Below the pieces are notes generated by a model. It did no database searches, was not told where the DNA came from, and worked only from the letters and a program-made list of their open reading frames with translations. Of a DNA stretch of 31,158 bases, positions 4,770-21,982 are shown piece by piece. The translations under genes and the position numbers were made by a program. The stretch is from a virus, in IMG/VR virus record IMGVR_UViG_3300027752_000066, positions 1-31,158 of that record; one strand, given 5' to 3'. How positions within the stretch are numbered: the stretch's first letter is position 1; each line of letters opens with the position of its first letter.

Positions 4770-5807
4770 TTAAATTATTCCACCATCTGTGATTGTCCAA
4801 TTATTAGGTGTCGATGTTAAAACCCCTCTTGCAGTTTGTCCTGCTGCTGAATATGTAATTGTTGCTGCTCCAAAATCAACACCTGCTTGAACAGTTAATG
4901 CAGACCATCCATTTAAAATTGCGTCATAATTGGTTGTAGAAAGTGCTGTTAAATCAAACATACCAATCATATCAGCCACACTACTAACGTTCCACGTACT
5001 AATGTTTTGGTTGAAAGATGATGCAGAATAAAACATATAACTCATATCATTAACACTACTTGTATCCCAAGAACTTATATCTTGGTTAAAAGCAAGTGCT
5101 TGTTGAAACATAGCATTAATTTTTGTAACACTACTTGTGTCCCAATTATTCAATGGTTGATTAAAAACATCAGCACCAATAAACATACCTTGCATAAAAA
5201 TAACACTACTTACATTCCAAGCGTTTAAAGGTTGGTCAAATAAGTTTGCATCTAAAAACATATTGTTCACATTAGTAACACTACTCACATCCCAATTTCC
5301 AATAGGTTGATTAAATACAAGTGCTGCAAAAAACATTTTAGCCATATCAGTAACATTACTCACATCCCAAGAACCAATTGGTTGATTGAAAGAATTGGCT
5401 CCAAAAAACATCTCACGCATATTATTAACATTACCTGTATTCCAACCGCCAATATTTTGATTAAAAGCATTACATTCCCTAAACATAGTGTTCATAGTAG
5501 AAACACTACTCACATCCCAATTTGAAATATCGTCATTAAAAGTAGTTTTATCTCTAAATAATTCTGACATATCAGTAATAGCAGAAACATTCCAAGTATT
5601 AATTTGCCCATAGTCACATATTGCAGAAGCATTATCTGAAACCCATAAATCTACTGCGGTCTGTAATTGAGTTTTAGTACTAAACGGATAACTTGCGCCC
5701 TCAAAACAACCTGCATTACATTGGTCAAACTGTGATGTAGGTAATGAATTTTTATTAGAATCATCTCCCCACCAACTACTACAATAAATTTTTCCCCAAT
5801 TCGCCAT
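4770..5807 (-). CDS. BspA-like (DUF285) repeat protein, putative receptor-binding virion protein
   Basis: A 345-residue protein built mainly of about nine 25-residue repeats with the core F-N-Q-x-I-x-x-W-D-V-S-S-V-x-x-M-x-x-M-F (about residues 75-300). This is the BspA/DUF285 repeat known from surface proteins of Bacteroidota, Mycoplasma and others. A cysteine-bearing N-terminus (CSSWWGDDSN) and a C-terminal TPNNWTITDGG segment flank the array. No signal peptide is evident, and the gene lies 13 nt upstream of the tail fibre, so it is probably a structural adhesin on the virion instead of a secreted host protein. The receptor-binding role is inferred from repeats and position. Confidence 0.78.
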   Translation of the reverse strand: MANWGKIYCSSWWGDDSNKNSLPTSQFDQCNAGCFEGASYPFSTKTQLQTAVDLWVSDNASAICDYGQINTWNVSAITDMSELFRDKTTFNDDISNWDVSSVSTMNTMFRECNAFNQNIGGWNTGNVNNMREMFFGANSFNQPIGSWDVSNVTDMAKMFFAALVFNQPIGNWDVSSVTNVNNMFLDANLFDQPLNAWNVSSVIFMQGMFIGADVFNQPLNNWDTSSVTKINAMFQQALAFNQDISSWDTSSVNDMSYMFYSASSFNQNISTWNVSSVADMIGMFDLTALSTTNYDAILNGWSALTVQAGVDFGAATITYSAAGQTARGVLTSTPNNWTITDGGII

Positions 5808-8222: not shown

Positions 8223-8710
8223 CTTACTATGTATTGATTTTTTGAGCCATTATAAGTTACATAAACCTCCTCTGTTGGAATAAAGAAAATAGGGTCATAT
8301 TCATTATTATAACCTTCGTAGCTTAAATACCTGTCTTTATTTAATTGATAGTACTCATTATTTTCTTGATTAATTGTTTGGTTTGTACAGAAAATCCAAT
8401 CCTTATAAAAGTCTGTTGTTGAAACCTCCTCGTTCCATATTTGATTAGATAAATCCCATAACTCATAATTCGTATTCCAAATATTATAATCAGAGTATAA
8501 ATGTAAGTCAAAAAAATGGTTTTCCCTTAATGCAGGATTGAAAATATTACTAAAGGTCAAGTAGTTACCTACCCTAACCGCATCGGTTACATTATAGAAA
8601 ACACTTGTATTAGTGCTATCATCCCTTACTGACATTGTAAAAGAACCCTGATAATCTCTTGGTATTACAGATAGGGTTTGTGAAAGTCCTGATGCGTTTA
8701 AAATTATCAT
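8219..8710 (-). CDS. Hypothetical virion-region protein, 163 aa
   Basis: I place the start at 8710 (MIILNASGLSQTL). The longer frame back to 8770 would begin inside the terminator of the upstream gene and would translate its T-tract. The late-leader motif ACGTTATATAGGTATATG sits exactly before 8710, which decides the start. The product is rich in aromatic residues and Asn (many Y, F, W, N), suggesting a beta-structured protein. Between tail tube and portal, and overlapping the portal start. A role in head-tail connection is plausible; I do not recognise the family. Confidence 0.72.
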   Translation of the reverse strand: MIILNASGLSQTLSVIPRDYQGSFTMSVRDDSTNTSVFYNVTDAVRVGNYLTFSNIFNPALRENHFFDLHLYSDYNIWNTNYELWDLSNQIWNEEVSTTDFYKDWIFCTNQTINQENNEYYQLNKDRYLSYEGYNNEYDPIFFIPTEEVYVTYNGSKNQYIVR

Positions 8711-8728
8711 ATACCTATATAACGTAAA
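8711..8728 (-). promoter_or_regulatory. Late-leader motif at the 163-aa gene
   Basis: The minus strand reads TTTACGTTATATAGGTAT directly before ATG at 8710. It supports the shorter start for this gene. Confidence 0.45.
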
Positions 8729-8757
8729 ATAAAATCTTATTTGTGAAATTGTTAAGC

Positions 8758-8784
8758 AAAAAAAAAGCACCCCGTAAAGGATGC
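8758..8784 (-). terminator. Terminator after the tail tube gene
   Basis: On the minus strand GCATCC-TTTAC-GGGGTGC forms a short stem (with one T-G pair) followed by a run of nine T. It begins 26 nt past the stop of the tail tube gene. Confidence 0.8.
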
Positions 8785-8809
8785 CTGATTTTTAACACTA
8801 AAAAGAGTA

Positions 8810-9343
8810 TTATACTGCCGTTGGGTCTATCTGCGTAGCATCTCCTGTAACCGCTGCTGATAAGAAATAAGGTGCAGTTTCCTCCATACCTTCAAACGTC
8901 AAAGTAAAGCCTGAAAGGTCTCCTGCTGCTGCTCCTGTAACCACAGTTCCACCTGTAACTTCAAGCCCATTTTCAAAGCCACAAAGGAAGCTATTTCCGT
9001 AGTAGTCTACTACAACTGCATAAGGTCTTGAAACCGCAAGAGTTTGTAATTCAGATTGTGTTTTAGCATCTAAATATGTCAAAGTCAAACTTAGTGTTTG
9101 AGTGTAGAAAGTAGTTCCGTTTTCTCTTGAACTCGTTACCGAAGTTTCTAAAGATGAATTTCCTTTTACATCATATTCAAACCAAGTTGGAGCGGGTGTT
9201 CCATTTACAATAGTTGCTTCTTTTGTAGTTGCATCAACTGTAATACTATCAATCGTTCCATAGTCAGCAAATAATACTGTTTTAATTCCTCCAAATGCTG
9301 ATTTGCAAGGAACTTTTCTACCTGTCGTAAGAGTACAAGCCAT
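8810..9343 (-). CDS. Putative major tail tube protein
   Basis: A 177-residue beta-rich protein starting MACTLTTGRKVPCKSAFGG, poor in Lys/Arg and rich in Thr, Val and Gly. Composition, size and a C-terminal Ala/Thr-rich tail fit siphovirus tube subunits, and it follows the capsid gene with strong terminators on both sides, implying a separately controlled high-abundance product. Codon use is richer in GC than its neighbours, as is the capsid gene, which is common for abundant virion proteins. An alternative is a capsid decoration protein; position alone does not exclude it. Confidence 0.55.
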   Translation of the reverse strand: MACTLTTGRKVPCKSAFGGIKTVLFADYGTIDSITVDATTKEATIVNGTPAPTWFEYDVKGNSSLETSVTSSRENGTTFYTQTLSLTLTYLDAKTQSELQTLAVSRPYAVVVDYYGNSFLCGFENGLEVTGGTVVTGAAAGDLSGFTLTFEGMEETAPYFLSAAVTGDATQIDPTAV

Positions 9344-9361
9344 AATTTATATTTGTTTTAT

Positions 9362-9393
9362 AAAAAAAAGGGATAGGCAGAACCCACCCCTTT
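9362..9393 (-). terminator. Terminator after the major capsid gene
   Basis: On the minus strand AAAGGGGTGGG-TTCTG-CCTATCCCTTT forms an 11-bp stem (two G-T pairs) then a T-run of eight in total. Together with the terminator at 8758 it brackets the tail tube gene, so capsid and tube mRNA levels may be set independently. Confidence 0.85.
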
Positions 9394-9414
9394 AATATTG
9401 ATTAATTATTAATT

Positions 9415-10389
9415 TTAAGCGTAAGATACGATATCTTCTGCAATACCAAACTGTACTGCACTTGTAAATCTCATTACCATTCTAACATTGTTAGATGCAT
9501 CAAGGTCTGCCATATCTAAAACCTTCACGGTATTTGACGAATTTAAAAGTCCTGTTCCAAAATACAAGTTTGAACGTTGTGCTCCATAAATTTTATCATC
9601 TGATAATCCCTGTGCAACAAAGATTTTAACACCATTGATAGAAAGAGAACCATTGTTCCACCATTGCGTACCTTGTGCGTTTGTACCATTTGCTCCTAAG
9701 CCATTTGCTGCAAATCCACCTAATGCTTGAACATATAATTTAGCTGCTTTAGTGCTAACATAAACATAAAAATCTTCTTTACCATATAAAGAGTTTGGTA
9801 TAACTTCTACAACGTCTGATAATTTTTCAATGATGTTTGCTGATGTTAAAGCAACACTTGTAAGTGCTTGACCTGCGGGAACATCTCCTGCTACTACTGC
9901 TGCTGCAATTAACTTCTCAAAACCATCAAATGATGTGTGAGTTGCTCCTGCGGTATCACCTTGCCAAATGTTAAACTCTGTATTTTGTGCTACTTCTGCT
10001 GCAACGTGTGCAATCATAAAGTCTGCAAATTTAGGAGGTAAAGACTGTCCCAAACCATAGCCCATAGATTGACTTTCCCAATCGTTTACAAAGTCATACT
10101 TACACAATTGTAGATTTACTTGTAATTCTTTTGGCTCAATTATTCTTTCAGTTAATGTTACAGAACTGTTAGGTGAAAAATCACACCCTGCTGCACTTAC
10201 TAAAGAACCTGTTGCTAATTTCTTAATCACTTCTTTAAAAGAAATGTTTGCCTTTACAGTTAATCCACCATCATCAATAGTAGATGCAGATAGTAAAGAT
10301 GCAGCGATATACTCACCTGCAAACTCTCCCGCATAAGTTGTAGTTATGTTGGTAGTAGTTGCTAATTGTACTTTGTTTAATTTACTCAT
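9415..10389 (-). CDS. Major capsid protein
   Basis: A 324-residue protein that should form the icosahedral shell. It directly follows the protease and scaffold genes, has the low-charge, Ala/Gly/Asn-rich composition of capsid subunits, and ends with a beta-strand tail (VMRFTSAVQFGIAEDIVSYA). The segments FVNDWESQSM (about 100) and NIWQGDTAG (about 140) resemble Bacteroidota phage capsid proteins. An HK97-like fold is expected but cannot be verified by eye. A terminator hairpin starts 22 nt after the stop. Confidence 0.82.
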   Translation of the reverse strand: MSKLNKVQLATTTNITTTYAGEFAGEYIAASLLSASTIDDGGLTVKANISFKEVIKKLATGSLVSAAGCDFSPNSSVTLTERIIEPKELQVNLQLCKYDFVNDWESQSMGYGLGQSLPPKFADFMIAHVAAEVAQNTEFNIWQGDTAGATHTSFDGFEKLIAAAVVAGDVPAGQALTSVALTSANIIEKLSDVVEVIPNSLYGKEDFYVYVSTKAAKLYVQALGGFAANGLGANGTNAQGTQWWNNGSLSINGVKIFVAQGLSDDKIYGAQRSNLYFGTGLLNSSNTVKVLDMADLDASNNVRMVMRFTSAVQFGIAEDIVSYA

Positions 10390-10409
10390 TTTTTCTTATT
10401 TTTAAATTT

Positions 10410-11060
10410 TTATTTGTTTTGGTTTAATCTGTTTAATACTCTTTCTAATGCAGTCTGTCCCATTTTACTTTTTCCAAACTCTACCTTGTTAGGCTTAGGT
10501 ACTGATTCTTTTTCAGGATTGTGTTTTATTGGGTCTGCTGATGCTTGAGATAAATCTTCTGAAAACTCCTCTTTTACTGTACGAGTTTTTAAGACACCTG
10601 AATTTGCTTCCAAATCCTGCTCCTCAACATCTTCCATTTTAGATTCTTTGTTTTCCTTTAGGCTTGAAATTGCATCTTCAAGGTTTTGGATTCTTTTCTC
10701 CATTCCTTCCCAATCAGCAACATCTGCCATTTCTTTTTCCTTTTCCTCGTAGTCCTCAACTTCTAAGTCAGCAGTTTCAGCAGGTGTTTCTTCAGCAGGA
10801 ACCTCATCGCTTACTTCTTTTATTTCAGCAATTATACCTTCCTCGCTAACAACTAACAACCTACCATCTTCAAGGATATACTCACCAACAGGTAAAGCAA
10901 CCTTCTCTTTAGATTCGTCATCGGTAATAATAAATACTTCCTTTCCATCTTCAAAAGAATCGGAGGTAATTACAGTACCGTTTTCCAACTTCATTTCTTC
11001 AAGTTTTACCTCGATGTTTAGAAGTGTTTTAATTTGGTTTAACATTTCATTTGATTTCAT
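10410..11060 (-). CDS. Putative capsid scaffold protein
   Basis: A 216-residue, very acidic protein (about 75-155 is Glu-rich with a helical coiled-coil stretch EKRIQNLEDAISSLKE) and a basic C-terminal end (TALERVLNRLNQNK). Acidic, helical and ending in a basic capsid-binding tail is typical of scaffolds, and it sits between the XkdF-type protease and the capsid gene. The protease presumably removes it during maturation. Preceded by a late-leader motif that abuts the ATG. Confidence 0.75.
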   Translation of the reverse strand: MKSNEMLNQIKTLLNIEVKLEEMKLENGTVITSDSFEDGKEVFIITDDESKEKVALPVGEYILEDGRLLVVSEEGIIAEIKEVSDEVPAEETPAETADLEVEDYEEKEKEMADVADWEGMEKRIQNLEDAISSLKENKESKMEDVEEQDLEANSGVLKTRTVKEEFSEDLSQASADPIKHNPEKESVPKPNKVEFGKSKMGQTALERVLNRLNQNK

Positions 11061-11096
11061 ATTTATATAACGGATTTAATTTTAATATTTGCGTTT
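11061..11096 (-). promoter_or_regulatory. Late-leader motif abutting the scaffold start
   Basis: The minus strand contains GCAAATATTAAAATTAAA followed by TCCGTTATATAAATATG. It fills the gap after the Cys-rich 53-residue gene. Confidence 0.55.
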
Positions 11097-11258
11097 TTAC
11101 TCTGTTCTTGTTATAACTCCAATGCCCTGTGCCCTCATAGAGCCATCACAACACTTTATTGAATAAGTATTAGTATCCCAACATAAACACGCCCTGCCAC
11201 TATTATTTGGACTTGTTCGACTTGGTATAAATTGTGAATTATTTTTATTTCTTGCCAT
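11097..11258 (-). CDS. Cys-rich 53-residue protein of the capsid cluster
   Basis: A gene hidden between protease and scaffold. Its ATG overlaps the protease stop (TAATG) and it ends 37 nt before the scaffold. The product begins MARNKNNSQFIP and has a compact core ACLCWDTNTYSIKCCDG followed by RAQGIG. The C-x-C ... C-C spacing suggests metal binding or a disulphide knot. I believe similar proteins occur next to capsid genes in other Bacteroidota phages, but no function is known to me. Confidence 0.75.
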   Translation of the reverse strand: MARNKNNSQFIPSRTSPNNSGRACLCWDTNTYSIKCCDGSMRAQGIGVITRTE

Positions 11259-11851
11259 TACTTAGAAGTTAAAATATTTTTAATTTCATTTAATAGTAAG
11301 TCATCTTTTGACATTTCATTTTTAGCAGAATCCTTCATTTCCATTTTATCCGCAAAATAGCCTTCAATACTGAAACCCTTGACCTTTTTCGTTTTCACAT
11401 ACTCTTGCCAAACATCATCGTTGTTTACTTTTACTGCACCCATCCAAGTACCAACAGGAACGTCAATTCCATACAAAGCACTTTTATCTTTTTCTTTATC
11501 CTCTACAATCCAAGTCTGTACCAAACTCAAACCTTTAAGTTGGTCTTTGTGTTCTAAAGTTGAATTATTTTGATTGCTATTTTGTAGGTACATTTGAGAT
11601 GCCTTTTCAACAGTATCCTTTGAAAAAAAGATGTAGTATTCACCTTCATCTCCATTTCTATAAATAGGTTTGTCAGGTATTAATAAAGCACCCATCAATA
11701 AACGCTTCTCTTTACTTATTTCTGCAAGTTTTATTTCCTGATTTTTTAAAGCAATAAAGTCAGATTCTATGGCAGGATTTTCTACAATTGAAATTGCTTC
11801 AACTCCGATTTCATCTTGCTCATCTCCAAGTACTAATTCTATAATTCTCAT
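11258..11851 (-). CDS. Prohead protease, XkdF-like (Peptidase_S78_2 type)
   Basis: A 197-residue putative serine protease that processes scaffold and capsid proteins during head maturation. Recognisable features: MGALLIPDKPIYR (53-65), YYIFFSKDTVEKAS (72-85), STLEHKD with candidate catalytic His101, VGTWMGAVKV (133-142) and KGFSIEGYF with candidate Ser161. This matches the XkdF-type putative protease domain. The C-terminal 30 residues form a charged helical tail. Upstream lies a 35-nt gap with a late-leader motif abutting the ATG. Genes for a Cys-rich protein, scaffold and capsid follow in order. Confidence 0.82.
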   Translation of the reverse strand: MRIIELVLGDEQDEIGVEAISIVENPAIESDFIALKNQEIKLAEISKEKRLLMGALLIPDKPIYRNGDEGEYYIFFSKDTVEKASQMYLQNSNQNNSTLEHKDQLKGLSLVQTWIVEDKEKDKSALYGIDVPVGTWMGAVKVNNDDVWQEYVKTKKVKGFSIEGYFADKMEMKDSAKNEMSKDDLLLNEIKNILTSK

Positions 11852-11886
11852 ATTTATATAACGTATTTAATTTTTGTATTTGCTTT
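11852..11886 (-). promoter_or_regulatory. Late-leader motif abutting the protease start
   Basis: The minus strand contains GCAAATACAAAAATTAAA followed by TACGTTATATAAATATG. It fills the whole gap between tape measure and protease. It shares more than 30 of 40 positions with the scaffold leader. Confidence 0.55.
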
Positions 11887-14028
11887 TTAACCTATTGATG
11901 CATCTTGAATCACATTTCTATCCATCTCTTGAGCAGTACTTACATCTCCTGCAACTACAAATGCTTTTACAGGTTGTGCTTTTTGACTACCTATTGCATC
12001 TGCCAATTGGTTTGTTTCCGATGAACCAACTATATTAAATGCAGGAGGTTGAGGTGGTGCAGACTGTGAAGCACCCGCTGCAGGATTTGTTGCTGCTCCT
12101 CCCCCCGAAGATGGGTTTGTTGCCATAATAGACTTAACAGATTTAAAACCAATAGCAGCGGTTGATGCAATGTTTACAAGTTTCATAGCAAAGCCAAAAG
12201 GTGTAGTAGTCTTTGTAGCTAATTCAGCGGTAATACCTTGATAGGTGTTTATTAATGCTGATGCTGCTGCTGCTGCTTTTCCTGCTTTAGAATTTTCCCC
12301 TAAAATACCTGCTATTTTACCAAATGCAGAACCAACTGCTAAAATTTTTGTTTTTCTTAATTCATCTTCATCTGCTGCTTCAATATCTGCATATTTTTTA
12401 ATAATTGCAGCACGTTGTTCTTCTGTACCTTCTAACCTTTCAAGTTCAGCTAAAGATTCTGCTTTTTTCTCCTCTAATGTTAGTTCTTTATCCTCAATTT
12501 CTTTTTCTATAAACGCTGCTAATTTTTCGTCTTTTATTAACTGCTCATTATCTTCAATTACTTTTTTCTTTTCCTTAAATGCTGCATCCACATCAAGTAG
12601 CATCTGATTCTTTGCTTCCTCTGATAATTTTAAATCTTCTATTGCCTTTATTCTATCTTCTTTTTCTTTTTCAATAGCAGCAAATTTATTTTCTTTATCA
12701 GTTTCTATTAATGAATCCTTAAAGTCCTGCACCGCTTTTGCATCTGCAATTGCTTGGTCATCAAGTGCTTTTCTTTCTGCTGCTGCCTCCCTTTGTGCTC
12801 CAACTATTTGAGCAGTAACAGTTTTTGCCTTTGTAAGTTTTGCAGTTTCTAAGTCTATTAGTTTTGCCCTTAGTTGTGCTTCCTCGTTTAAATCTTCTGT
12901 TGTGGATTTTCCTAAATTATTTTCTGCTATTTTAGCCTTTAACCTTAACTCAGCAAGTTTAACTTCTTTGTTTGTTATTTCTTCATCAATCTTTCCTGCT
13001 TCTTTTAAGAAATCAATCCTTTGTTGTGCGGTGTAAAGTTCTTTATTTGCAGCCTTGTCTAATAGGTCAGCACGTTTTCTATTTGCTTCTGCTCTTTCAA
13101 TACCTAATTTACGTTCTAATTTATTTGCTTCTGCTCTTTGGTCTGCAATTTTAGCTGCTGCATTCCCTTCTTTTATTATTTCCGATGATAATTCTTTAGT
13201 AGCTTCTGTAACCTTTCCAATAGTATCTTTAACACCTGTTAATGTATCAACATAAGAACTACCTGCTTTTTTAGCATCATCCATCGCACCACCGAAATCT
13301 CCGCTAAATACCTTTTTAATCGCACTACCTAAAAAGCCTATTGTTTCAATTGCACTTGAAATTCTATTAGTAATGTTTTTTACAAATGCATCTTTAAAAT
13401 CAATAAGTGCTTGTTTTGGGTTTTCAAATACTGATATAATAAGTTCACCTAATGAAGCCAATCTATCTGTAAAGACACTGACAACTGAACCAATTACACC
13501 CATCATTTTAGCAAACTTATTTTGCCCTTCCTCTGATGATGTAAAAGCAGCGGTTAAAGATGTTAAAAGAATTAATAAAGCACCTATACCTGTTCCAATA
13601 ATAGCAATCTTCATAAGGTTGAAACCCTTAGTTGCACCGCCTACTGTTTTTGTAAGGTTAGTAAATCCCGAAATTGCACCGCCTGTTTTTTGGTCAATAA
13701 TACCAAGAACCCCACTGTAATCTGCTGCGTTTGCGGTTGATTCCTTTAATTCTTTATTAGCATTTTTACGTTCCTTATTTACGTTTTTTAAGCCATTTTT
13801 TTCCTCTGCTAACCTATCCTTTGTTTTTTCTATTTGGTCGTTTAGTTTCTTTCTACCTGCAAGGTCAGATTTTGATGTTTTTTTTAATTGCTTCTCATAC
13901 TGCAATAGTTCGTTTTCAATTTCATTAATTAACTCCTCTTGTGCCGAAAGGGATTTATTTAATTCATCTACATTTTTCTGTGCAGTTTCCGTTGATACCT
14001 TTAGAGTGTATTCTTTTTCTATTGCCAT
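11887..14028 (-). CDS. Tail tape measure protein
   Basis: A 713-residue protein that sets tail length and helps DNA entry. Residues 1-100 and 290-560 are long, highly charged coiled coils (Lys/Glu/Ala-rich), separated by hydrophobic segments near 135-165 (KIAIIGTGIGALLILLTSL) and followed by another near 565-625. The C-terminal part is Ala/Pro/Ser-rich. If the usual rule of about 1.5 angstrom per residue holds, the tail would be near 107 nm. The start overlaps the preceding mini-gene by 10 nt. Confidence 0.85.
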   Translation of the reverse strand: MAIEKEYTLKVSTETAQKNVDELNKSLSAQEELINEIENELLQYEKQLKKTSKSDLAGRKKLNDQIEKTKDRLAEEKNGLKNVNKERKNANKELKESTANAADYSGVLGIIDQKTGGAISGFTNLTKTVGGATKGFNLMKIAIIGTGIGALLILLTSLTAAFTSSEEGQNKFAKMMGVIGSVVSVFTDRLASLGELIISVFENPKQALIDFKDAFVKNITNRISSAIETIGFLGSAIKKVFSGDFGGAMDDAKKAGSSYVDTLTGVKDTIGKVTEATKELSSEIIKEGNAAAKIADQRAEANKLERKLGIERAEANRKRADLLDKAANKELYTAQQRIDFLKEAGKIDEEITNKEVKLAELRLKAKIAENNLGKSTTEDLNEEAQLRAKLIDLETAKLTKAKTVTAQIVGAQREAAAERKALDDQAIADAKAVQDFKDSLIETDKENKFAAIEKEKEDRIKAIEDLKLSEEAKNQMLLDVDAAFKEKKKVIEDNEQLIKDEKLAAFIEKEIEDKELTLEEKKAESLAELERLEGTEEQRAAIIKKYADIEAADEDELRKTKILAVGSAFGKIAGILGENSKAGKAAAAASALINTYQGITAELATKTTTPFGFAMKLVNIASTAAIGFKSVKSIMATNPSSGGGAATNPAAGASQSAPPQPPAFNIVGSSETNQLADAIGSQKAQPVKAFVVAGDVSTAQEMDRNVIQDASIG

Positions 14029-14159
14029 TTTATAATTGTTCTAACTTGTTTAATCGCTCCTTTAATATCTTTAGGTAAAGCGTATTTACCTTGTGCAATT
14101 TTTATATTTTCAGTATCTCCGTTTGCTATTGTAAGCAAGTCTAATATGTTTTTTATCAT
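14019..14159 (-). CDS. 46-residue protein just upstream of tape measure
   Basis: A small gene between the 737-residue tail protein (TAATG overlap) and the tape measure (10-nt overlap), so it is embedded on both sides in translationally coupled genes. The product starts MIKNILDLLTIANGDTENIK and ends with a basic helix (GAIKQVRTIIKW). No recognisable domain. Position next to the tape measure suggests a tail assembly role. Confidence 0.65.
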   Translation of the reverse strand: MIKNILDLLTIANGDTENIKIAQGKYALPKDIKGAIKQVRTIIKWQ

Positions 14160-16372
14160 TATATAACTATTTTATTTAAAAGTTGCAATTCAGATTTTCC
14201 TGTTTGTAAATTTGTTGTTATACTATTTATATTATAACTTCTTTGATTTATAACCAAAGTATCTGCCAAAGAATAAGTTTGCAAAAAACTTGTACTTAAA
14301 AAAGCATTAACTTTTGTCAATCTTCTGCCACTATTAAAAACCCCACTTATATAATTAAAATAATACTTATTGAACAAACTTTCTTGTTTTACAATTCCTG
14401 CAAATTCATCAATCTCTGCACCAAAGTTTATAGTCCTTCCAAGTTCTGCACTTGAGCCTTCTAAACTATTTGATGGTCTATTATAAGTAGAAAGTGATGC
14501 AGCAGCAGTTACAGAAGCCCCATCGATAAACGAAATTAAATCTGAACCTGTTGATTGATTTACATTTATAAATACTAAGGGAGCAGTAAGTATTGGTCGC
14601 TCATCTTTATCTACACTCCAACCCCATTGTATATTGGTTAAAGAACCTAAGTCTACATCTGTTAAACGCTCATAAACTATTTTATCAAAGTTTGTTTTCA
14701 CTACATATTTTGAACCCCTATCAGTTGTATCAATTCCACTCAAAGAAGTTGAATTTTCTAAGTTTCCGTAAACTGTATTATTTATCTCTGCAAAATTAGT
14801 AGCAAATAAAGTTTTAGGTGCCACATTTCTAAAAGCAATTTCTTCATAAGGAGGAGAAAAATCAACTGAAGAATTAGCTACATCCACTTGACTTGTAATA
14901 TCAATTACGTTTCCTGTTAAATAAAAACTATCTAAAGTCTGAACTTTTATTTTACCATCCGATTGAATAAATGCAGTAAGGTTAAACATCTTAAACAGAC
15001 TTGTTAAATATTCAAGAATAAGCATTTTTGGCATTTGGTCAGCAATAATAATTTCATCTAAAATACCTGTTGGAAGTACATTTGTTATATTGCAATATTC
15101 ATATGAATAATTAAAACCTGAAAGGATATTAACTCCATATCTTTTTTCTAAAATTAAATTTGTAGTATAGGAAAAATTTCCCGATGTAGAGGTTAAAACA
15201 AACCTGAAATTAGAAAAACTACCTGCTGCACCTAAATAAGGTGTCGTAATTGTATGCTCTGTTATTCCATCTGCTGACAAAGAGGTTGCAGAAGAAACTA
15301 CTACTGTTTGACCTGTAATATCTTCTATTGCTAAACTAAAATTACCTCCACCTATACCTATTACTTTCCATTCTACCGCAAAATCAACCGTTACTTGACC
15401 TATTGCAGGATTGAAGGAAAAAGGCTTAATTCTCCACACTCCATTTGTAATTTCGCTATGTTCACAAGCAGGGTAGCTACTGTCATAACGATAGCAAAAA
15501 GGGTTCCAACCTGAATTTGGGTTTGTCATATCTGTAATCACCATTGTATTTATTTGATTACCTGCGTAGCTTTTCCCTATATTTCCTTTAGCCCTACTCA
15601 TCCATAAATACATATTGTCATAGGTTTCATTATAATATGAAGATGTATTATCTGTGTTGAAAAAACTGTCGCCTGTTAGTTCAAAGTTTAATCCATTTCC
15701 AACACCATAAACAGATTCCGTGTATCCTGTAATCCTTTCAAGTATTGCACTAAGTTTTATGGCAGGTTTTAAATCTGTATATTTTACTCCGTGATTCTTA
15801 GTACCTGTACCGGGTGATTTGTAATGTAAGTTTCTTGCATCAGCACCTTCTGTTGCAGTGTCATAATAAAACCTTTCTGTATGTGAAATTAAAGGATATA
15901 TTATGTTTCCTGAAAATAAATTACTCTCTAATCCTAATTTTACATTTGAAATATTGTATTCGTGATTATAAGATGAATTTGCTTCAAAAACATTCTGAAG
16001 CGTAATCTCTTTTAATTTCTTTTTTAAATCAACTGTTTCCCCAAAGAAAGTAATCTTATAATTGTCAGGTCTGTTCTCTTTCATTGAAACACCATTCAAT
16101 GCAATATATCCTTTCCTAAACAAAACGCTATTTAAATAAATTTCAGCAGATTTTTTATCATTTGCATTAAACCCATTTTGAATATTAAAATTATAATAGT
16201 GTTTAAATATTTTGTTGTTTGTGGAACTTGCAGGAACAGAAAAACTCTTGGAAAAATCCGTAAAGATAGAACCAATGTCTTTTACATTCTGAATAGTTTG
16301 AGTTAAAGAAATACTTTCGTCTTTAAATAATTCAACCCTTTCTCCTTCGATATATAGTATTACTGTTTGCAT
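14159..16372 (-). CDS. Large tail protein, putative tail-associated/baseplate component
   Basis: A 737-residue structural protein. The N-terminal 120 residues contain LFKDESISLTQTIQ and IFTDFSKSFSVPAS, features I associate with a conserved Bacteroidota phage tail protein, followed by long beta-rich sequence with many Asn, Ser and Tyr. It abuts the 333-residue gene directly (stop then ATG) and precedes the tape measure. Likely a distal tail or Tal-like hub, by size and context; no enzymatic motif found. Confidence 0.62.
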   Translation of the reverse strand: MQTVILYIEGERVELFKDESISLTQTIQNVKDIGSIFTDFSKSFSVPASSTNNKIFKHYYNFNIQNGFNANDKKSAEIYLNSVLFRKGYIALNGVSMKENRPDNYKITFFGETVDLKKKLKEITLQNVFEANSSYNHEYNISNVKLGLESNLFSGNIIYPLISHTERFYYDTATEGADARNLHYKSPGTGTKNHGVKYTDLKPAIKLSAILERITGYTESVYGVGNGLNFELTGDSFFNTDNTSSYYNETYDNMYLWMSRAKGNIGKSYAGNQINTMVITDMTNPNSGWNPFCYRYDSSYPACEHSEITNGVWRIKPFSFNPAIGQVTVDFAVEWKVIGIGGGNFSLAIEDITGQTVVVSSATSLSADGITEHTITTPYLGAAGSFSNFRFVLTSTSGNFSYTTNLILEKRYGVNILSGFNYSYEYCNITNVLPTGILDEIIIADQMPKMLILEYLTSLFKMFNLTAFIQSDGKIKVQTLDSFYLTGNVIDITSQVDVANSSVDFSPPYEEIAFRNVAPKTLFATNFAEINNTVYGNLENSTSLSGIDTTDRGSKYVVKTNFDKIVYERLTDVDLGSLTNIQWGWSVDKDERPILTAPLVFINVNQSTGSDLISFIDGASVTAAASLSTYNRPSNSLEGSSAELGRTINFGAEIDEFAGIVKQESLFNKYYFNYISGVFNSGRRLTKVNAFLSTSFLQTYSLADTLVINQRSYNINSITTNLQTGKSELQLLNKIVI

Positions 16373-17374
16373 TTACCTTATGTTATTTATGTAGTCAAAA
16401 GCATCTTCAAATTGTATAGTGTATTCTATTAGCCTGTCATTTACAGATGTTTTAATTTCCATATTTGAAGTCTTTACAATTACAGGAACTTGTGTAGTAG
16501 TTCCATTTGCTTCAATCGTTTTTTCAATCCAAACGTACTCACTTAATAATAGTTGCTCAAAATATTCAACTGCAAATTCAGGATAATAACCTGAACTTAA
16601 AGTTTGAGATTGTAAGGCTTGAGTATTAAATATCTTTTTAGAAGCATTTGTTAATCCGTATGTTGTATTACCTCCTGATAAAACTAATGTATTTGACTTG
16701 TAATCAGTACTTGAAGTATTTAGCTTTTTAGATTTTTTTAAGAAGAACCACAAGTCTTGCTGAACTCCGAACTTATTTATAAAAATAACCTTTGTACCTA
16801 TTCCATATTTTGTGCAATCAATTCTTTTCACTATCAAATCATTTCCTGTTCCTGAATTAGGAAAAGTTACAGTAGTACTTGAACCTGTATAAGTTTGGTA
16901 TCCTATTGAATTTGTAGATGAAACATAAGGTATTGTTCCACTTGCATTTTCAGGTACAAATATCTCGTATCTACTTTTTGAATAATCTTTTGATATTAAC
17001 CAAGCAGGAGCAGAATTTAAAAATGGTAGTGTAGGATTAGCACCTTCTAAAAAAGTTCCGTATGCTTCAAACCCAACATCTGATGAGGTTATTGTTGAGC
17101 CTACTATTGTCCCTGTGGCATTCGCTCCTGAATACTTTGTTATTACTGTACTGATTGAAACTGTTTGTGCATTGTAATTTGATACATAACTAATGTCTAA
17201 GTAATCTCTTGAAATCTCTGATATATCAAATGATGCGGTTTCCCCTTGAGCCACGTTTTTTACAATCCTATAAATTAAAACTGTATTGATTGAAATATCA
17301 AGCGATACAGAAAGAACACCCGAAGGTATTAAAGTGGATTTGAATTGTGGGTTTCTTAAAGCTAAATTTGCCAT
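16373..17374 (-). CDS. Tail structural protein, 333 aa
   Basis: A beta-rich protein starting MANLALRNPQFKSTLIPSG, with low charge and many Ser/Thr/Tyr residues. It lies between the gp10-like neck protein and the large 737-residue tail protein, immediately adjacent to the latter. Distal-tail (Dit-like) function is possible from gene order. I do not recognise diagnostic residues, so only a structural tail role is proposed. Confidence 0.58.
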   Translation of the reverse strand: MANLALRNPQFKSTLIPSGVLSVSLDISINTVLIYRIVKNVAQGETASFDISEISRDYLDISYVSNYNAQTVSISTVITKYSGANATGTIVGSTITSSDVGFEAYGTFLEGANPTLPFLNSAPAWLISKDYSKSRYEIFVPENASGTIPYVSSTNSIGYQTYTGSSTTVTFPNSGTGNDLIVKRIDCTKYGIGTKVIFINKFGVQQDLWFFLKKSKKLNTSSTDYKSNTLVLSGGNTTYGLTNASKKIFNTQALQSQTLSSGYYPEFAVEYFEQLLLSEYVWIEKTIEANGTTTQVPVIVKTSNMEIKTSVNDRLIEYTIQFEDAFDYINNIR

Positions 17375-17377
17375 TGT

Positions 17378-17911
17378 TTATTTTTTTTGTCCGAATATTA
17401 TTTGTTTCTCTATGTCCAAAGCAAATGCCTCTATAAGGTCATCAGGGAGGTTATACGCTGCCTTATTAAATGGCTTGGTAAAGAACTCGTTTCCTTTTAA
17501 TCCTTGAGCAAATATGCTCCTCTGTAAAACAAAACCCATACTTATATTACTACCCTTTGCATACTGTCCCTTTTTATTCCTGAACCTTATGTTTTTTTTC
17601 TTTGCCCAATCCGCTAACATCTGCATCGGTGGCATTTTGTTTGTGTACCTAAATCTACTTGTAGGTGCTTTTTGATATCCACCTTTAACCAAACTTGGAT
17701 TTGAACCCCTTACTCCTTCATCTACAAATTGTCCGTAGCTTTCCATTAAGAAGTCTAATAGGAACAGATTTTTTTCAACATCTAATTCATAAGATATAGA
17801 ATTGTAAAGAGCACCATTGCCTTTGTCATCTTTGCTTAAATTAGACTTGGCTTGTTGCACTACATACTTTGCGTATTTTTCTGCTACCTCTTTTAAATTC
17901 TTGTAGTCCAT
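17378..17911 (-). CDS. HK97-gp10-like tail completion/neck protein
   Basis: A 177-residue protein with a helical N-terminus (VAEKYAKYVVQQAKSNLS) and the segment ESYGQFVDEGVRGSNPSL at about 72-89, reminiscent of the FVExGT region of HK97 gp10 family members, which join heads and tails. It carries a basic central region. Its ATG overlaps the stop of the tail terminator-like gene (TAATG). The HK97 gp10 similarity is judged by eye. Confidence 0.58.
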   Translation of the reverse strand: MDYKNLKEVAEKYAKYVVQQAKSNLSKDDKGNGALYNSISYELDVEKNLFLLDFLMESYGQFVDEGVRGSNPSLVKGGYQKAPTSRFRYTNKMPPMQMLADWAKKKNIRFRNKKGQYAKGSNISMGFVLQRSIFAQGLKGNEFFTKPFNKAAYNLPDDLIEAFALDIEKQIIFGQKK

Positions 17912-18381
17912 TAACAGATTAAAATATCATTGTAAACTAAAACCTCCATTGTGCAAGTCCATCCTGCTAATTGGTTTTCAAACCTATCGTAAAAAGGTGT
18001 CATAGTTGAACTACCTTCCACTTGGTACATATCAGTATATAAGTCCCCCATTCTTAATCTTTGGGTCAGCTTATTTACAACCGCAAGTTGAGTGTTTAAA
18101 ATATCCTGCAAGTTGTTGTTTCCGATAAATATATCTTCTGTTTTTTCTTTAGATTGATTTACAATATCACAAGCCAAAATACTTATGTTAAACCTCAACA
18201 CCCTTTGGTCATCAGTTACACTATTTATTATTAAATGTGATAAAGGAAATATATCTTGCTTGTTTAGGTTTACATCTGTAATGTCCCCTGTTGTTACAGT
18301 ATTAACATTCACGTCTTCTAACAGTGCAGTTTTAATTTCTTGTGTAAGTTTGTAAAAACCTCTAACTCCTTCGTTTGCCAT
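17911..18381 (-). CDS. Tail terminator-like protein
   Basis: A 156-residue protein with features recurring in Bacteroidota phages: GFYKLTQEIKTALLED (8-23), NTVTTGDITDVNLNKQDIFPLSH (27-49, invariant-looking K and PLSH) and LAGWTCTMEVLVYN near the end. Located between the tail chaperone and the gp10-like gene, the position of tail terminators that cap the tube. TAATG overlaps on both sides show translational coupling. Confidence 0.6.
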   Translation of the reverse strand: MANEGVRGFYKLTQEIKTALLEDVNVNTVTTGDITDVNLNKQDIFPLSHLIINSVTDDQRVLRFNISILACDIVNQSKEKTEDIFIGNNNLQDILNTQLAVVNKLTQRLRMGDLYTDMYQVEGSSTMTPFYDRFENQLAGWTCTMEVLVYNDILIC

Positions 18382-18638
18382 TACTTAAATTTTTTCTTCA
18401 TTTGTTTATCTTCTAATTCACTTTTGTCCTTCATAAAACTTAACATCATAAAGCACTCGTGAAAGTTTAATTTAATGATATCTTTAAATCTTGTAATATC
18501 CCCTTGAGCGATTCCGTAAATACTTTGGTACCATCCCCATTTGCTTGAGAATTGAGAAACTGAATCAAGACTTCGTTGTCCTCCTGACTGTCCAAATAGT
18601 TCGTCATAGTTTGCGATAATTCCAACCCTAAATTCCAC
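18381..18638 (-). CDS. Tail assembly chaperone, -1 frameshift extension (gpGT-like)
   Basis: An 85-codon open frame beginning right after the T10 tract and overlapping the end of the frame-0 gene. It has no ATG start of its own (first codon GTG). Its C-terminal part, SKWGWYQSIYGIAQGDITRF and ECFMMLSFMKDKSELE, looks like the T domain of tail chaperones. A -1 slip gives a fusion of about 246 residues (161 shared plus 85). Its stop overlaps the next ATG (TAATG). Independent translation is an alternative. Confidence 0.7.
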   Translation of the reverse strand: MEFRVGIIANYDELFGQSGGQRSLDSVSQFSSKWGWYQSIYGIAQGDITRFKDIIKLNFHECFMMLSFMKDKSELEDKQMKKKFK

Positions 18639-19120
18639 AAAAAAAAAATTGATGATAAGACTGCATCCATTGGCATATCCAAAATTGCTTCTGCATTTTC
18701 TAAATTGTGCTCCTCAATACTGTACCTATCTTTTAAGGAAACTAAAATTGGTCTATAAAGTACATTCATAGCCTTTTCAATATTATCCCAATCACCAATG
18801 TAAGTGTCAAGTTCAATGTATTCCCCTAAGCCTAAATCGTGGAGGTTTGGATGAAAACCATAATTAACACCTTTTAAGGCAAACTTTTTTACAAGTGAAG
18901 GCTTAGTATCAAACATCCCTGTTAGCTTACCTGTAATCTCCTCAACATCACTAACCTTTAAAAGCATTACCTTTGTAAGTTCTGCATTGCAAAATATCTC
19001 AATCATTTTAGCATTCAGGAACAAAGTTTCTTTTGTGTTACCTTGAACTGTAAGAAACCTTTTATACTGCCTTAATGTAATCTCATTTAACGATGTAGGA
19101 ATTTTTAGATTCAATTTCAT
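18467..19120 (-). CDS. Tail assembly chaperone, frame-0 product (gpG-like)
   Basis: A 217-residue protein starting MKLNLKIPTSLNEITLRQYK. The core has YIELDTYIGDWDNIEKAMNVLYRP (about 100-124), which I associate with tail chaperones next to tape measure clusters in Bacteroidota phages. At codons 158-161 the message contains T10 (18639-18648). Ribosomes staying in frame finish here with a 57-residue tail; those slipping -1 enter the 18638-18381 frame. A late-leader motif abuts the ATG and a terminator lies just upstream, so this gene probably begins its own transcription or translation unit. Confidence 0.72.
   Translation of the reverse strand: MKLNLKIPTSLNEITLRQYKRFLTVQGNTKETLFLNAKMIEIFCNAELTKVMLLKVSDVEEITGKLTGMFDTKPSLVKKFALKGVNYGFHPNLHDLGLGEYIELDTYIGDWDNIEKAMNVLYRPILVSLKDRYSIEEHNLENAEAILDMPMDAVLSSIFFLWNLGLELSQTMTNYLDSQEDNEVLIQFLNSQANGDGTKVFTESLKGILQDLKISLN
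18639..18648 (-). other. T10 slippery site for -1 frameshifting
   Basis: Ten consecutive T on the coding strand, read ATT TTT TTT TTG in frame 0 (Ile-Phe-Phe-Leu). Slipping back one base yields Phe-Val-Glu-Phe-Arg and continues through the conserved-looking extension. This is the expected layout for the G/GT switch of tail chaperones. A sequencing error in the homopolymer would mimic it. Confidence 0.68.
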
Positions 19121-19150
19121 ATTTATATAACGTGTTTAAATTATGTTTTT
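19121..19150 (-). promoter_or_regulatory. Late-leader motif abutting the tail chaperone start
   Basis: The minus strand ends AAACACGTTATATAAATATG with the ATG as the gene start. Upstream is A-rich (GTAAAAACATAATTT). Nearly identical to the leaders of the scaffold and protease genes. Confidence 0.5.
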
Positions 19151-19166
19151 ACAAAAGTAAAGGTAC

Positions 19167-19197
19167 AAAAAAAATGCATCCGTTTCTGAATGCATTT
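19167..19197 (-). terminator. Rho-independent terminator before the tail chaperone
   Basis: On the minus strand AAATGCATTC-AGAAAC-GGATGCATTT forms a 10-bp stem (one T-G pair) followed by a T-run of about eight. It separates the early cassette ending at 19224 from the tail chaperone starting at 19120. Confidence 0.82.
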
Positions 19198-19223
19198 CTA
19201 ATCGTTTGATTTATAATAGTTTT

Positions 19224-19349
19224 TTACCTCATATCTGCTTCGTGACAGGTAGATGAACAGAAATCCTTATCTGTATCTATCTCAGTTCCACAAGTTCCGC
19301 ATTCGCCACCTTTTCTATCTATTGGGTTTATATCATCGTACCATTCCAT
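19224..19349 (-). CDS. 41-residue zinc-ribbon mini-protein
   Basis: A small gene starting MEWYDDINPIDRKGG, with CGTCG followed by FCSSTCHEADMR, so two Cys pairs (C-x2-C and C-x3-C-H) 13 residues apart form a likely zinc ribbon. Its ATG lies 2 nt after the stop of the 42-residue gene, and a strong terminator follows 27 nt after its own stop, so it closes the promoter-led cassette that starts at 19744. Function unknown; such fingers may bind nucleic acid or protein. Confidence 0.72.
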   Translation of the reverse strand: MEWYDDINPIDRKGGECGTCGTEIDTDKDFCSSTCHEADMR

Positions 19350-19351
19350 AG

Positions 19352-19480
19352 TTATATAACTTTAATTGTTCCGTTTGCAAAGTGCTCACATATTATTCCT
19401 GTTGGCAATACTACAACCAATGTAGGCTTTATATTTAATTCTATTAATTTTGCTTTGATAATTCTTTTAAGTCCTTTCAT
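19352..19480 (-). CDS. 42-residue hypothetical protein
   Basis: Starts MKGLKRIIKAKLIELNIKPT and ends ANGTIKVI. Basic N-terminal helix followed by a hydrophobic strand-like region (LVVVLPTGIICEHF). Located between the 74-residue gene and the zinc-ribbon gene, 2 nt before the latter. The sequence AAACAGATG, a short form of the early leader, directly precedes its ATG. No family recognised. Confidence 0.62.
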   Translation of the reverse strand: MKGLKRIIKAKLIELNIKPTLVVVLPTGIICEHFANGTIKVI

Positions 19481-19495
19481 CTGTTTTGGTTTAAT

Positions 19496-19511
19496 GGGGT
19501 TTTTACACCCC
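19496..19511 (-). terminator. Hairpin after the 74-aa gene, identical to the one at 25197
   Basis: The coding strand reads GGGGTGTAAAAACCCC beginning 8 nt after a stop codon. The same 16 bases follow another early gene at 25197-25212. There is no T-run after this copy, so termination is probably weak; it may act as an RNA stabiliser or partial attenuator. Confidence 0.5.
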
Positions 19512-19519
19512 TTTGTTAT

Positions 19520-19744
19520 TTATTTTAACCTATTATCTGTTGTTAAATGATTGCTCATAAAAGAAAATGTTTGCTCTTTTTGTTTTGGTGCTATACTCAA
19601 CAACCACTCATTCCATTTTTGATTGCTTTCAATATACTTAGGTGTAGATTTAACTTCATTAAATATATTGTTAAAAGTTTTTGGTGAGTATGCAAGGTTT
19701 CTTTCTTTCATTAACTCGTTTGTGATGTCTAAAAATGTTTTCAT
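19520..19744 (-). CDS. 74-residue hypothetical early-type protein
   Basis: Starts MKTFLDITNELMKERNLAYS; helical, moderately charged, no membrane segment or known motif. It has its own Bacteroidota-type promoter (19768-19798) and an AAAACAGAA leader before ATG, so it is probably expressed early although it sits inside the late region immediately after the large terminase. Together with the two mini-genes downstream it forms a discrete three-gene cassette. Confidence 0.72.
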   Translation of the reverse strand: MKTFLDITNELMKERNLAYSPKTFNNIFNEVKSTPKYIESNQKWNEWLLSIAPKQKEQTFSFMSNHLTTDNRLK

Positions 19745-19767
19745 AATATTCTGTTTTAAGTTCCCTA

Positions 19768-19798
19768 CAAATATAAAACATATTTAGTTATAAACAAA
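19768..19798 (-). promoter_or_regulatory. Host-type promoter for the 74-aa gene cassette
   Basis: On the minus strand TTTG (19798-19795), a 19-nt spacer, then TATATTTG (19775-19768), a full match to the Bacteroidota primary sigma consensus TTTG-N19-20-TAnnTTTG. Transcription would start near 19761, about 17 nt ahead of the ATG. Confidence 0.78.
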
Positions 19799-19816
19799 AC
19801 ATTTAATAAGTTATTT

Positions 19817-21025
19817 TTAAGAAATTAAATATTTACCTCTATTTGGGTTTTGTAATTGATATGAAATTGCATACCTGACCGCATCCAAAAGGTGGTTCCA
19901 AGAATCTTGTGGAGTTTTAGATTTCTTTTCAAGCCAAGAGTAATTGTTTAGTTCTTTGATTAAATTAATACTGTTTTCTTCTATGATTAAATCGTAATCC
20001 TGAAGCAATGAAATTCCGTATGTAATTGAACCCTGCCCTTTTATAGATTTGACTATGTTACAACCTTTTGATTTAAGTTCGTGCAAAAGTCGAGGTTCAG
20101 CAGAATCACCTACAATTAAACCATTCTTAGCGTGTTTTAAGTTAAGCACTGCAATCTCTGATGTAGTAAGAGCCTTTAAGTAAAAACATTCTTTTAAATA
20201 GATGATTTTGTTTACTGTATCAATATTAGTTTCTACAAGCGTATTTTCATCTGAAGCGAATCCGTAATCTTGACCAAAGACAGAAACACCTACTTCTTTA
20301 AAAGCACCTATTTTCCAATTATTAAATATAACACCCTCCGCTTTGTTTAGCCAACCCCCAAGCATTTGATGTTTATACTTTTCGGGTCGTCTTTGTTTTA
20401 TGTTTTCTATCTGCTCTAAATAACTTTGAGATAGATTTTCTTCATTGTCTAAATATGTGGTATGTATATAAGTAGTATTTCCTTTTGTTAAGTTTGAACT
20501 TGGTGGCACTCCTTTATCTTCAAAGAATCTTGAATATATAAAATGTTCTTTAGTTGTTGGGTTCAAAATTAATATAACCCTGTTCTGCTGCTTGAGGTTT
20601 CTTACTGATAAATCTATCTTGTCAAATATGTTCTCATCCATAAGTTCTTCTGCTTCATCCATAACCCAAGTGCTAACATTAGTTAAGGACTTCAGGTTTG
20701 CAGTTTGGTCGCCTGATGATGTCTTTATCCCTTTAAATAATATCTTGCTTCCTGAACGCTTATTTACAATCTCATCTTTTGTTATGTGAAAATCCTGCTC
20801 AATATTTAAGGTTTCTATTTTATCTATAAATTCAGGAATGATTGAAATGTATGCTGATGATAAAGTGAATCTTGTAAACAGGATAGTATGCCCTGCTTCA
20901 TAGGTTAGCAACACCAACATTAAGTTTATTGAGTATGACTTTCCTGACCCACGCCCTCCTGTAACTATAAAGTAACGTGAATCTGAATCAGTTATTGGTG
21001 AATACTTTTTATCAACATCTATCAC
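19817..21025 (-). CDS. terL: Terminase large subunit
   Basis: A 402-residue packaging motor. ATPase: Walker A TGGRGSGKS at 22-30, Walker B with catalytic acids WVMDEAEE at 120-127, and the coupling segment ILILNPT at about 151-157. Nuclease: candidate metal-binding Asp at GQDYGF (253), VGDSAEP (307) and LLDAVRYA (381), an RNase H-like triad. Size and layout fit the Terminase_3 (PBSX/P22-like) family. The start overlaps the small terminase stop. It cuts the concatemer and pumps DNA into the prohead through the portal. Confidence 0.94.
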   Translation of the reverse strand: MIDVDKKYSPITDSDSRYFIVTGGRGSGKSYSINLMLVLLTYEAGHTILFTRFTLSSAYISIIPEFIDKIETLNIEQDFHITKDEIVNKRSGSKILFKGIKTSSGDQTANLKSLTNVSTWVMDEAEELMDENIFDKIDLSVRNLKQQNRVILILNPTTKEHFIYSRFFEDKGVPPSSNLTKGNTTYIHTTYLDNEENLSQSYLEQIENIKQRRPEKYKHQMLGGWLNKAEGVIFNNWKIGAFKEVGVSVFGQDYGFASDENTLVETNIDTVNKIIYLKECFYLKALTTSEIAVLNLKHAKNGLIVGDSAEPRLLHELKSKGCNIVKSIKGQGSITYGISLLQDYDLIIEENSINLIKELNNYSWLEKKSKTPQDSWNHLLDAVRYAISYQLQNPNRGKYLIS

Positions 21026-21288
21026 TTAAATTTAATCAGGTCTTTAAAGTTTACACTAAAGCCTTCAGAGGATGTTATATCTACTGATTCTTTTGGTTTG
21101 CCATATCTGTACCCAAAGTATAAAGACATCGCTCTACTGTCCCCTTTGAATATCTGTTTACCAAGTGTTCTAATCACTTCATCGTTATCAATTAGATTGT
21201 CAAGTTTTTCTATTAATTTAACCTCATCTGCTTTTGGTGGTCTACCTGCTCCCGCTCTTACTCCACCATTGTTTTTTCTATTGTCCAT
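21022..21288 (-). CDS. terS: Putative terminase small subunit
   Basis: An 88-residue protein with the N-terminal GGVRAGAGRPPKADE typical of small terminases and related DNA-binding proteins (AT-hook-like GRP), then helices and YFGYRYGKPKES. It overlaps the large subunit start by 4 nt. It should recognise viral DNA and recruit the large subunit. The start of the late region: a copy of the late-leader motif lies 33-49 nt upstream instead of abutting the ATG. Confidence 0.78.
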   Translation of the reverse strand: MDNRKNNGGVRAGAGRPPKADEVKLIEKLDNLIDNDEVIRTLGKQIFKGDSRAMSLYFGYRYGKPKESVDITSSEGFSVNFKDLIKFK

Positions 21289-21307
21289 AATTGAAATTCT
21301 ATTGTTT

Positions 21308-21338
21308 ATTTAATCTTTATACTTATATAACGTATTTC
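21308..21338 (-). promoter_or_regulatory. Late-leader motif upstream of the small terminase
   Basis: The minus strand reads AGAAATACGTTATATAAGTAT, matching the motif at 11060, 11851 and 19120. Here about 30 nt separate it from the ATG, so the motif is not simply a ribosome-binding site. It could be a late promoter or operator at the head of the late region. Confidence 0.5.
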
Positions 21339-21352
21339 TTAATTGTTTTTAT

Positions 21353-21982
21353 TTAAAACATTGTTAGTTGTTGTTGATGTGTCTTTAGTCTTTTCATTGC
21401 TGAATTATAATATTCTGTATCTAATTCACAAGCGGTTAAATCATATCCTAAATTATGACAAGCTAAAGCTATTGAGCCACTTCCCAAATGAGTATCTAAA
21501 ATCTTATTTCCTTCTTTTGCGTAGTTCATTAAAAGCCATTCGTAAAGTTGTGGTGGTTTTTGTGTTGGATGGAACTTTTCAGATTTATTTTTGTAAGCAC
21601 TATATCTAAACATTTTGTTAGCACCATTAAAAGACGTGTGAGCGTATTCGCAATCAGAAAAACTCAAACCTTTAGGTATTTCTTTATCCCAAATTATAAA
21701 CTTTCCACAAACTCCTAAATCAAAATAATTACCTCCCCAAATAATTTGGTCTTTAGAAACTCTTAACAACTCATTAAAATAATTTTTTGTAGGTATTGCA
21801 TTATCCCAATTTTTAGCCTTCCATTTTCTGTTTTTTGCTTTTGATGCTTTTGGAGTGTTACCTATACCCATATTCATATTGGCTAAGTCTATCCCATAAG
21901 GGGGGTCTACTATTGCAAGGTCAAAGTAGTTATCTTCATACCTTGCCATTAGTTGCATATTGTCCTCGTTTGTTATTTTCAT
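21353..21982 (-). CDS. DNA methyltransferase, beta-class amino-MTase
   Basis: A 209-residue SAM-dependent methylase that would modify adenine N6 or cytosine N4. The catalytic motif IV DPPYG is at 26-30, the HPTQKP motif at 138-143 and the SAM-binding motif I DTHLGSGS at 163-170; catalytic motif before the SAM motif is the beta-class order. Short for the class, with only a small central region for target recognition (about 35-65, KAKNRKWKAKNWD). Target unknown. It lies about 5 kb from the MjaI-like nuclease gene, so it is not an obvious operon partner. Confidence 0.88.
   Translation of the reverse strand: MKITNEDNMQLMARYEDNYFDLAIVDPPYGIDLANMNMGIGNTPKASKAKNRKWKAKNWDNAIPTKNYFNELLRVSKDQIIWGGNYFDLGVCGKFIIWDKEIPKGLSFSDCEYAHTSFNGANKMFRYSAYKNKSEKFHPTQKPPQLYEWLLMNYAKEGNKILDTHLGSGSIALACHNLGYDLTACELDTEYYNSAMKRLKTHQQQLTMF

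Follow-up and report, generated by a model that had tools for sequence, protein, structure and literature searches.

The window, by which we mean the whole stretch of DNA that was analysed, is a virus record of 31,158 bases with an A+T content of about 69%. Its ends (positions 1-137 and 31022-31158) are near-identical over 137 nt (95% or better), a match that makes a complete genome probable for this contig. The minus strand carries the main genes of the window. The genes and the host-type promoter relevant here are:

6411-8222, minus strand: portal (phrog_33693)
8219-8710, minus strand: 163-aa head gene, assigned by synteny (upstream of the portal); no family match
10410-11060, minus strand: scaffold-like protein (phrog_24921; synteny, between the protease and the presumed capsid gene)
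11258-11851, minus strand: head maturation protease (Peptidase_S78_2, XkdF-like; Pfam E = 6.5e-13)
18467-19120, minus strand: tail assembly chaperone-like protein (phrog_32199, function unknown), with a conserved T10 run and an open −1 frame
19817-21025, minus strand: TerL (Terminase_3)
21022-21288, minus strand: small terminase-like protein, TerS (phrog_38011, function unknown), overlapping TerL
25628-25657, minus strand: host-type promoter TTG..TATATTTG, predicted from sequence, with a 30-nt leader to the gene at 25597
27621-28142, minus strand: ECF-type sigma factor, 173 aa, the presumed reader of the five promoters described below (weak HMM matches; AlphaFold model)

Four putative host-type promoters of the form TTG..TATATTTG are predicted in the window, with leaders of 23-40 nt; the other three end at 30407, 22023 and 19768. 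A 74-aa gene (19520-19744, minus strand), located inside the late region with the large terminase on one side and the tail chaperone on the other, has its own host-type promoter. In the chaperone-like gene, a −1 frame that stays open for 87-88 codons comes after the T10 run (near 18639-18648), and eight relatives share this arrangement with the window, in an identical position. It is likely to represent a programmed −1 frameshift, as in other tail chaperones. Additional genes include a match to the MjaI restriction endonuclease family (27025-27624, minus strand; Pfam E = 8e-6) that overlaps the end of the sigma gene, a DNA methyltransferase gene (21353-21982), and a DUF285-repeat gene (4770-5807, minus strand) that contains 75-bp tandem repeats and adjoins a tail gene with an endosialidase chaperone domain.

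The original prediction described five minus-strand sites with a shared motif in front of late genes, and all five are present at the places named. The CGTTATATA core has exactly five copies in the window, all on the minus (late-gene) strand and none on the plus strand, against an expectation of 0.21 per window from a first-order Markov simulation. The shared core of the consensus given earlier is correct, but its exact form was slightly off, as the scaffold site reads CCGTTATATA and the 8.7-kb site continues GGTAT. A second box had been missed. In all five sites AAA is located exactly 15 nt upstream of CGTT, within the sequences gcAAA, gcAAA, gtAAA, acAAA and taAAA. This bipartite form would be expected 0.013 times in the window. 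The elements and the hairpin called next to one of them are:

8716-8724, minus strand: −10-like CGTTATATA of P-head, before the 163-aa head gene/portal operon (exact match; PWM, 28.0 bits)
8740-8744, minus strand: −35-like ACAAA of P-head, 15 nt upstream of CGTT (sequence match, PWM, spacing test)
8765-8786, minus strand: terminator-like hairpin just upstream of P-head (called by terminator scan)
11064-11072, minus strand: −10-like CGTTATATA of P-scaffold (exact match; PWM)
11088-11092, minus strand: −35-like GCAAA of P-scaffold (sequence match, PWM, spacing test)
11855-11863, minus strand: −10-like CGTTATATA of P-protease (exact match; PWM; kept before the protease ATG in most relatives shown)
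11879-11883, minus strand: −35-like GCAAA of P-protease (sequence match, relatives, PWM)
19124-19132, minus strand: −10-like CGTTATATA of P-chaperone (exact match; PWM; visible hairpin and T-run upstream)
19148-19152, minus strand: −35-like GTAAA of P-chaperone (sequence match, PWM, spacing test)
21324-21332, minus strand: −10-like CGTTATATA of P-TerS (exact match; PWM)
21348-21352, minus strand: −35-like box of P-TerS, AAA in register (sequence match, PWM, spacing test)

The gap between the core and the ATG is 3, 3, 3 and 5 nt at four sites and 35 nt at the TerS site, in agreement with the earlier description of a motif that abuts the ATG in four cases and is about 30 nt away in the fifth. 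Also as described, the TAnnTTTG −7 box of Bacteroidota sigmaA is absent from all five leaders. Two of the sites are preceded by hairpins, the terminator-like one at 8.7 kb and a visible hairpin with a T-run at 19.1 kb. A scan of the window with a position weight matrix (PWM), whose training set included these five sites, scores them at 28-34 bits, with 9.8 bits for the next best position. A relaxed 11-mer with two mismatches is not enriched in the window (27 found, 22.6 expected), so the informative signal is confined to the exact core or the bipartite form. A sigma-70 and terminator consensus scan found promoter-like sites only at chance level, and a search of Rfam gave no match. The original observation is confirmed, and the signal is stronger than first reported.

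The element RYAAA-N15-CGTTATATA recurs in related IMG/VR contigs, typically with five copies per genome, and more than a hundred related contigs carry the signal in front of virion-building genes. Its targets there are a TerS or ParB-like gene, the tail chaperone, the protease, the scaffold and a head protein, the last of which carries a VIPR motif. The search in related phages that had been proposed along with the motif thus shows that many relatives have it in front of these late genes. Over 1.58 Mb, comprising relatives and window, 286 cores are found in 123 loci, compared to 7-63 copies for ten control 9-mers. An ORF start lies within 60 nt of 93% of these cores, mostly at 3-6 nt, while the values for the control 9-mers are 0-46%. 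Among 57 non-redundant sites, which include about nine background hits, AAA is conserved at positions −18 to −16 from the C. The exact bipartite pattern is present in 19 of 20 records, on one strand per record, and the reversed pattern in none. When ten relatives (about 29-34 kb) were scanned with the PWM, most had five sites, located in front of the gene families that also follow the sites of the window. In a protease scan of IMG/VR, most of 80 loci have TGCAAA(A/T)...ACGTTATATA directly before the protease ATG. IMG/VR was also scanned by pattern only, for cores followed by an ATG after 3 nt, and among the matches listed most are located in front of these gene families. The element is missing from one fragment that does encode the sigma, where it precedes neither the ParB-like gene nor a different TerS-like gene.

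A diverged version of the element, ACAAA-N14-CGTTAATA, is found in two isolated phages of Nonlabens, P12024S and P12024L, whose protease homologue is about 49% identical to that of the window. Their CGTTA-type sites number seven, and at five of these ACAAA is found 14 nt before CGTT. Seven genes start 11-12 nt after these sites, and CGTT is located exactly at −12 from the ATG in six ORFs. Both phages carry a gene annotated as Sigma-70 region 2, and gp33 of P12024S, found through the shared terminase and then confirmed by HMM, passes Sigma70_r2 at 25.2. The relatives of this sigma in IMG/VR show the same CGTTA-type arrangement. In the genomes of Riemerella phage RAP44 and Olleya phage Harreka_1, no CGTT is found before gene starts. 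Directly upstream of two putative late promoters of P12024S, and pointing away from them, small minus-strand genes are annotated (2750-2980 and 5123-5365); for the gene at 2980, a host-type TATATTTG immediately precedes the ATG.

The sigma gene of the window is located among replication-type genes. Its product matches Sigma70_r2 with E = 0.0064 (16.7 bits, below the gathering cut-off of 24) and TIGR02937 (sigma70-ECF) over residues 18-173 with E = 7e-5 (22.5 bits, cut-off 42.9), and therefore passes neither of the curated Pfam and NCBIfam cut-offs. On the other hand, 32 of 34 homologues match an ECF-type family, and their lengths of 151-181 aa fit the ECF type, which has regions 2 and 4 only and is under about 200 aa. 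The AlphaFold model (pLDDT 81.6, pTM 0.44) has two helical domains joined by a low-confidence linker. ECF sigmas are the top matches to this model in the PDB; their whole-chain TM-scores are low, as would be expected if the two sigma domains are flexibly placed. By sequence profile, the PDB gave only one weak, unrelated match, a tblastn search of INPHARED gave none, and no confirmed relative was present among 84,980 prokaryote species, each represented by one genome. An HMM of the window-clade sigma matches all 12 window-clade records tested and the P12024S/L sigma (E about 4e-8), with no match in RAP44 or Harreka_1. All element-bearing genomes checked encode an ECF-type sigma, and the two sigma-less relatives are also without the element. 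This co-occurrence rests on two clades and two negative genomes (RAP44 and Harreka_1), and it is partly built in, as most genomes were fetched by sigma or protease similarity.

These observations suggest, with good though not full confidence, that the five sites are late promoters used by the phage sigma together with the host core RNA polymerase, with transcription from C+12 and mostly leaderless messages. The −35 box would be RYAAA(W) and the −10 box (A)CGTTATATA, AAA and CGTT being separated by 15 nt, and each promoter would head one virion-gene transcription unit. Host sigmaA would read the TTG..TATATTTG promoters, from which the phage sigma would be made early; the sigma would then steer the host core enzyme to the late promoters. 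Both the recognition by this sigma and the timing are what we infer from the arrangement of genes and sites. Sigma-specific late promoters had been put forward at the outset, and this reading gains support from the fixed bipartite spacing, the conservation before the same late genes, the hairpins at two sites, the co-occurring ECF-type sigma and the parallel element of P12024S/L. A phage RNA polymerase was also considered as the reader; the 23 proteins of the window that were scanned with Pfam include none, and the contig appears to be complete.

Alternatively, the element could be read by a host ECF sigma, or by a host sigma with a phage activator, the phage sigma having another role. We regard this as unlikely, since all tested genomes in which the element was found also contain the sigma gene, which is absent from the two relatives without the motif, and since element and sigma both differ between the window clade and P12024S. 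Moreover, an own late sigma is a known strategy of phages 7-11 and phiEco32 (PMC8948821).

The other interpretation offered originally was a translation-initiation signal beside the start codon. Most sites do have the element 3-7 nt before the ATG, and in F. johnsoniae initiation benefits from adenines at −3 and −6 (PMC6847099). However, the upstream box remains anchored to CGTT where the ATG is distant. Among non-redundant sites chosen by core and ORF only, AAA is found at N15 in 53 of the 54 that adjoin an ATG; where the ATG is at a distance of 24-40 nt, the count is 10 of 11. As the spacing of AAA is tied to CGTT and not to the ATG, a promoter is far likelier. In addition, the element is found only at the heads of five transcription units, two of them directly after terminator-like hairpins, and is absent from RAP44 and Harreka_1. 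A translation signal is thus very improbable. Still less credit can be given to a site at which a long late transcript would be processed or bound. Intercistronic sites of this kind could create 5′ ends near the ATGs, but a fixed 15-nt spacing between two AT-rich boxes, the placement after hairpins and a co-occurring sigma gene are unexpected for a cleavage site, and no phage nuclease is tied to the motif. Chance, or shared ancestry of AT-rich leaders, might be considered in a window of this A+T content with no enrichment of the relaxed 11-mer, but is practically dismissed by the exact-core counts, one-strand placement, spacing and pattern-only scan, and by five downstream gene families that differ from each other.

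For sigma-dependent late promoters, the positions of the transcription starts can be predicted. It had been objected that a −10 element this close to the ATG would leave almost no leader. Where the gap between core and ATG is 3 nt, the C of CGTT is at −12 from the ATG, as would be expected of a −10 element for transcription that starts at the ATG itself. This geometry answers the objection and turns it into a prediction of leaderless mRNAs. With the first RNA base 12 nt after the C of CGTT, the predicted start is the A of the ATG for the scaffold (11060), protease (11851) and chaperone (19120), and 8712 for the 163-aa gene, 2 nt before its ATG. For TerS it would be 21320, 32 nt before the ATG at 21288. 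In P12024S, late transcripts are predicted to start on the A of the ATG, give or take about 1 nt, for gp01 (179), gp05 (3031), gp08 (5412), gp41 (23961), gp44 (25201) and gp45 (26802), and close to the ATG for gp35 (21280).

The base at C+12 is a purine in 33 of 34 sites where 4-7 nt separate core and ATG (binomial P = 1.7e-7) and in 20 of 21 sites with the ATG at least 20 nt from the core (binomial P = 1.4e-4); T is common at C+11. Positions near C+12 are also purine-rich, so the start could be off by a base or two. In a set of 167 sites selected for the AAA box, the distances between core and ATG are bimodal, with 108 at 3 nt, 34 at 4-7 nt, 3 below 3 nt, 21 at 20 nt or more, and 1 between. 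This would give two classes of leaders, one of about 0-4 nt and one of about 19 nt or more, and 1 of 167 sites falls between them. From these positions we infer that transcription most likely starts at C+12 and that most late messages are leaderless or nearly so. Counting against this, the leaderless type accounts for a minority of mRNAs (5.5%) in Flavobacterium psychrophilum (PMC9723704). The late messages could use an initiation route other than that of the normally leadered mRNAs of the host, which have no Shine-Dalgarno (SD) sequence. It is conceivable, if somewhat short of an even chance, that the sigma switch is also a translation switch, which would convert the virion programme to leaderless mRNAs.

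The closest known system is that of the late promoters and sigma of Salmonella phage 7-11. In that phage, the sigma SaPh711_gp47 acts in the host RNA polymerase and has bipartite late promoters, GTAAtg-16-aCTA, with start sites 6-9 nt from the promoter element (PMC8948821). Both systems have a sigma encoded by the phage and a shared bipartite motif upstream of late operons that is distinct from the host motif. In comparison, the boxes here are RYAAA-15-CGTTATATA, the hosts are Bacteroidota rather than enterobacteria, and most late genes have their ATG directly at the predicted start or no more than about 4 nt from it. The phiEco32 sigma phi32_gp36 redirects the host RNA polymerase to middle and late genes (PMC8948821), and its homologue in SU10 has been called an ECF sigma (PMC4281155). 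This sigma also comes from the phage, but the phiEco32 promoters are a single element, tAATGTAtA, with no −35 box.

The late promoters of T4 have the sequence TATAAATA and no −35 box, and are used with the sigma-like gp55. A phage sigma-like factor for late genes is common to both systems, and some window sites read TATAAATA across the ATG. However, the conserved parts here are CGTT and RYAAA, and TATAAATA is lost in most relatives; a T4-like reading was rejected, as this stretch varies in relatives whereas CGTT and AAA do not. Classical ECF promoters have AAC in the −35 box. The element resembles bacterial ECF promoters in its CGT-type −10 box, but its −35 box is RYAAA(W) without AAC, and its spacing is 1-2 nt shorter than theirs. 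The regulon also differs, consisting of phage virion genes, and no anti-sigma gene was identified here. CGT −10 boxes of the ECF type exist in flavobacteria, for example the F. psychrophilum motif SM6 (PMC9723704). Full-text searches found no earlier description of the element in the literature covered.

From the relation to P12024, the phages studied here probably belong to 'group 1' of the phages of marine Flavobacteriaceae, a group that also contains the Persicivirga phages (PMC5332604). The element would provide a promoter code for the late genes of these common uncultured marine flavobacterial phages, and a likely job for a poorly annotated phage sigma gene. The late transcript starts are predicted to the exact base and can be tested in the isolated P12024S and P12024L. 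By these predictions, virion genes would be routinely expressed from leaderless messages in a phylum without Shine-Dalgarno signals. In raw metagenomic contigs, the element can mark late operons without the need for protein similarity.
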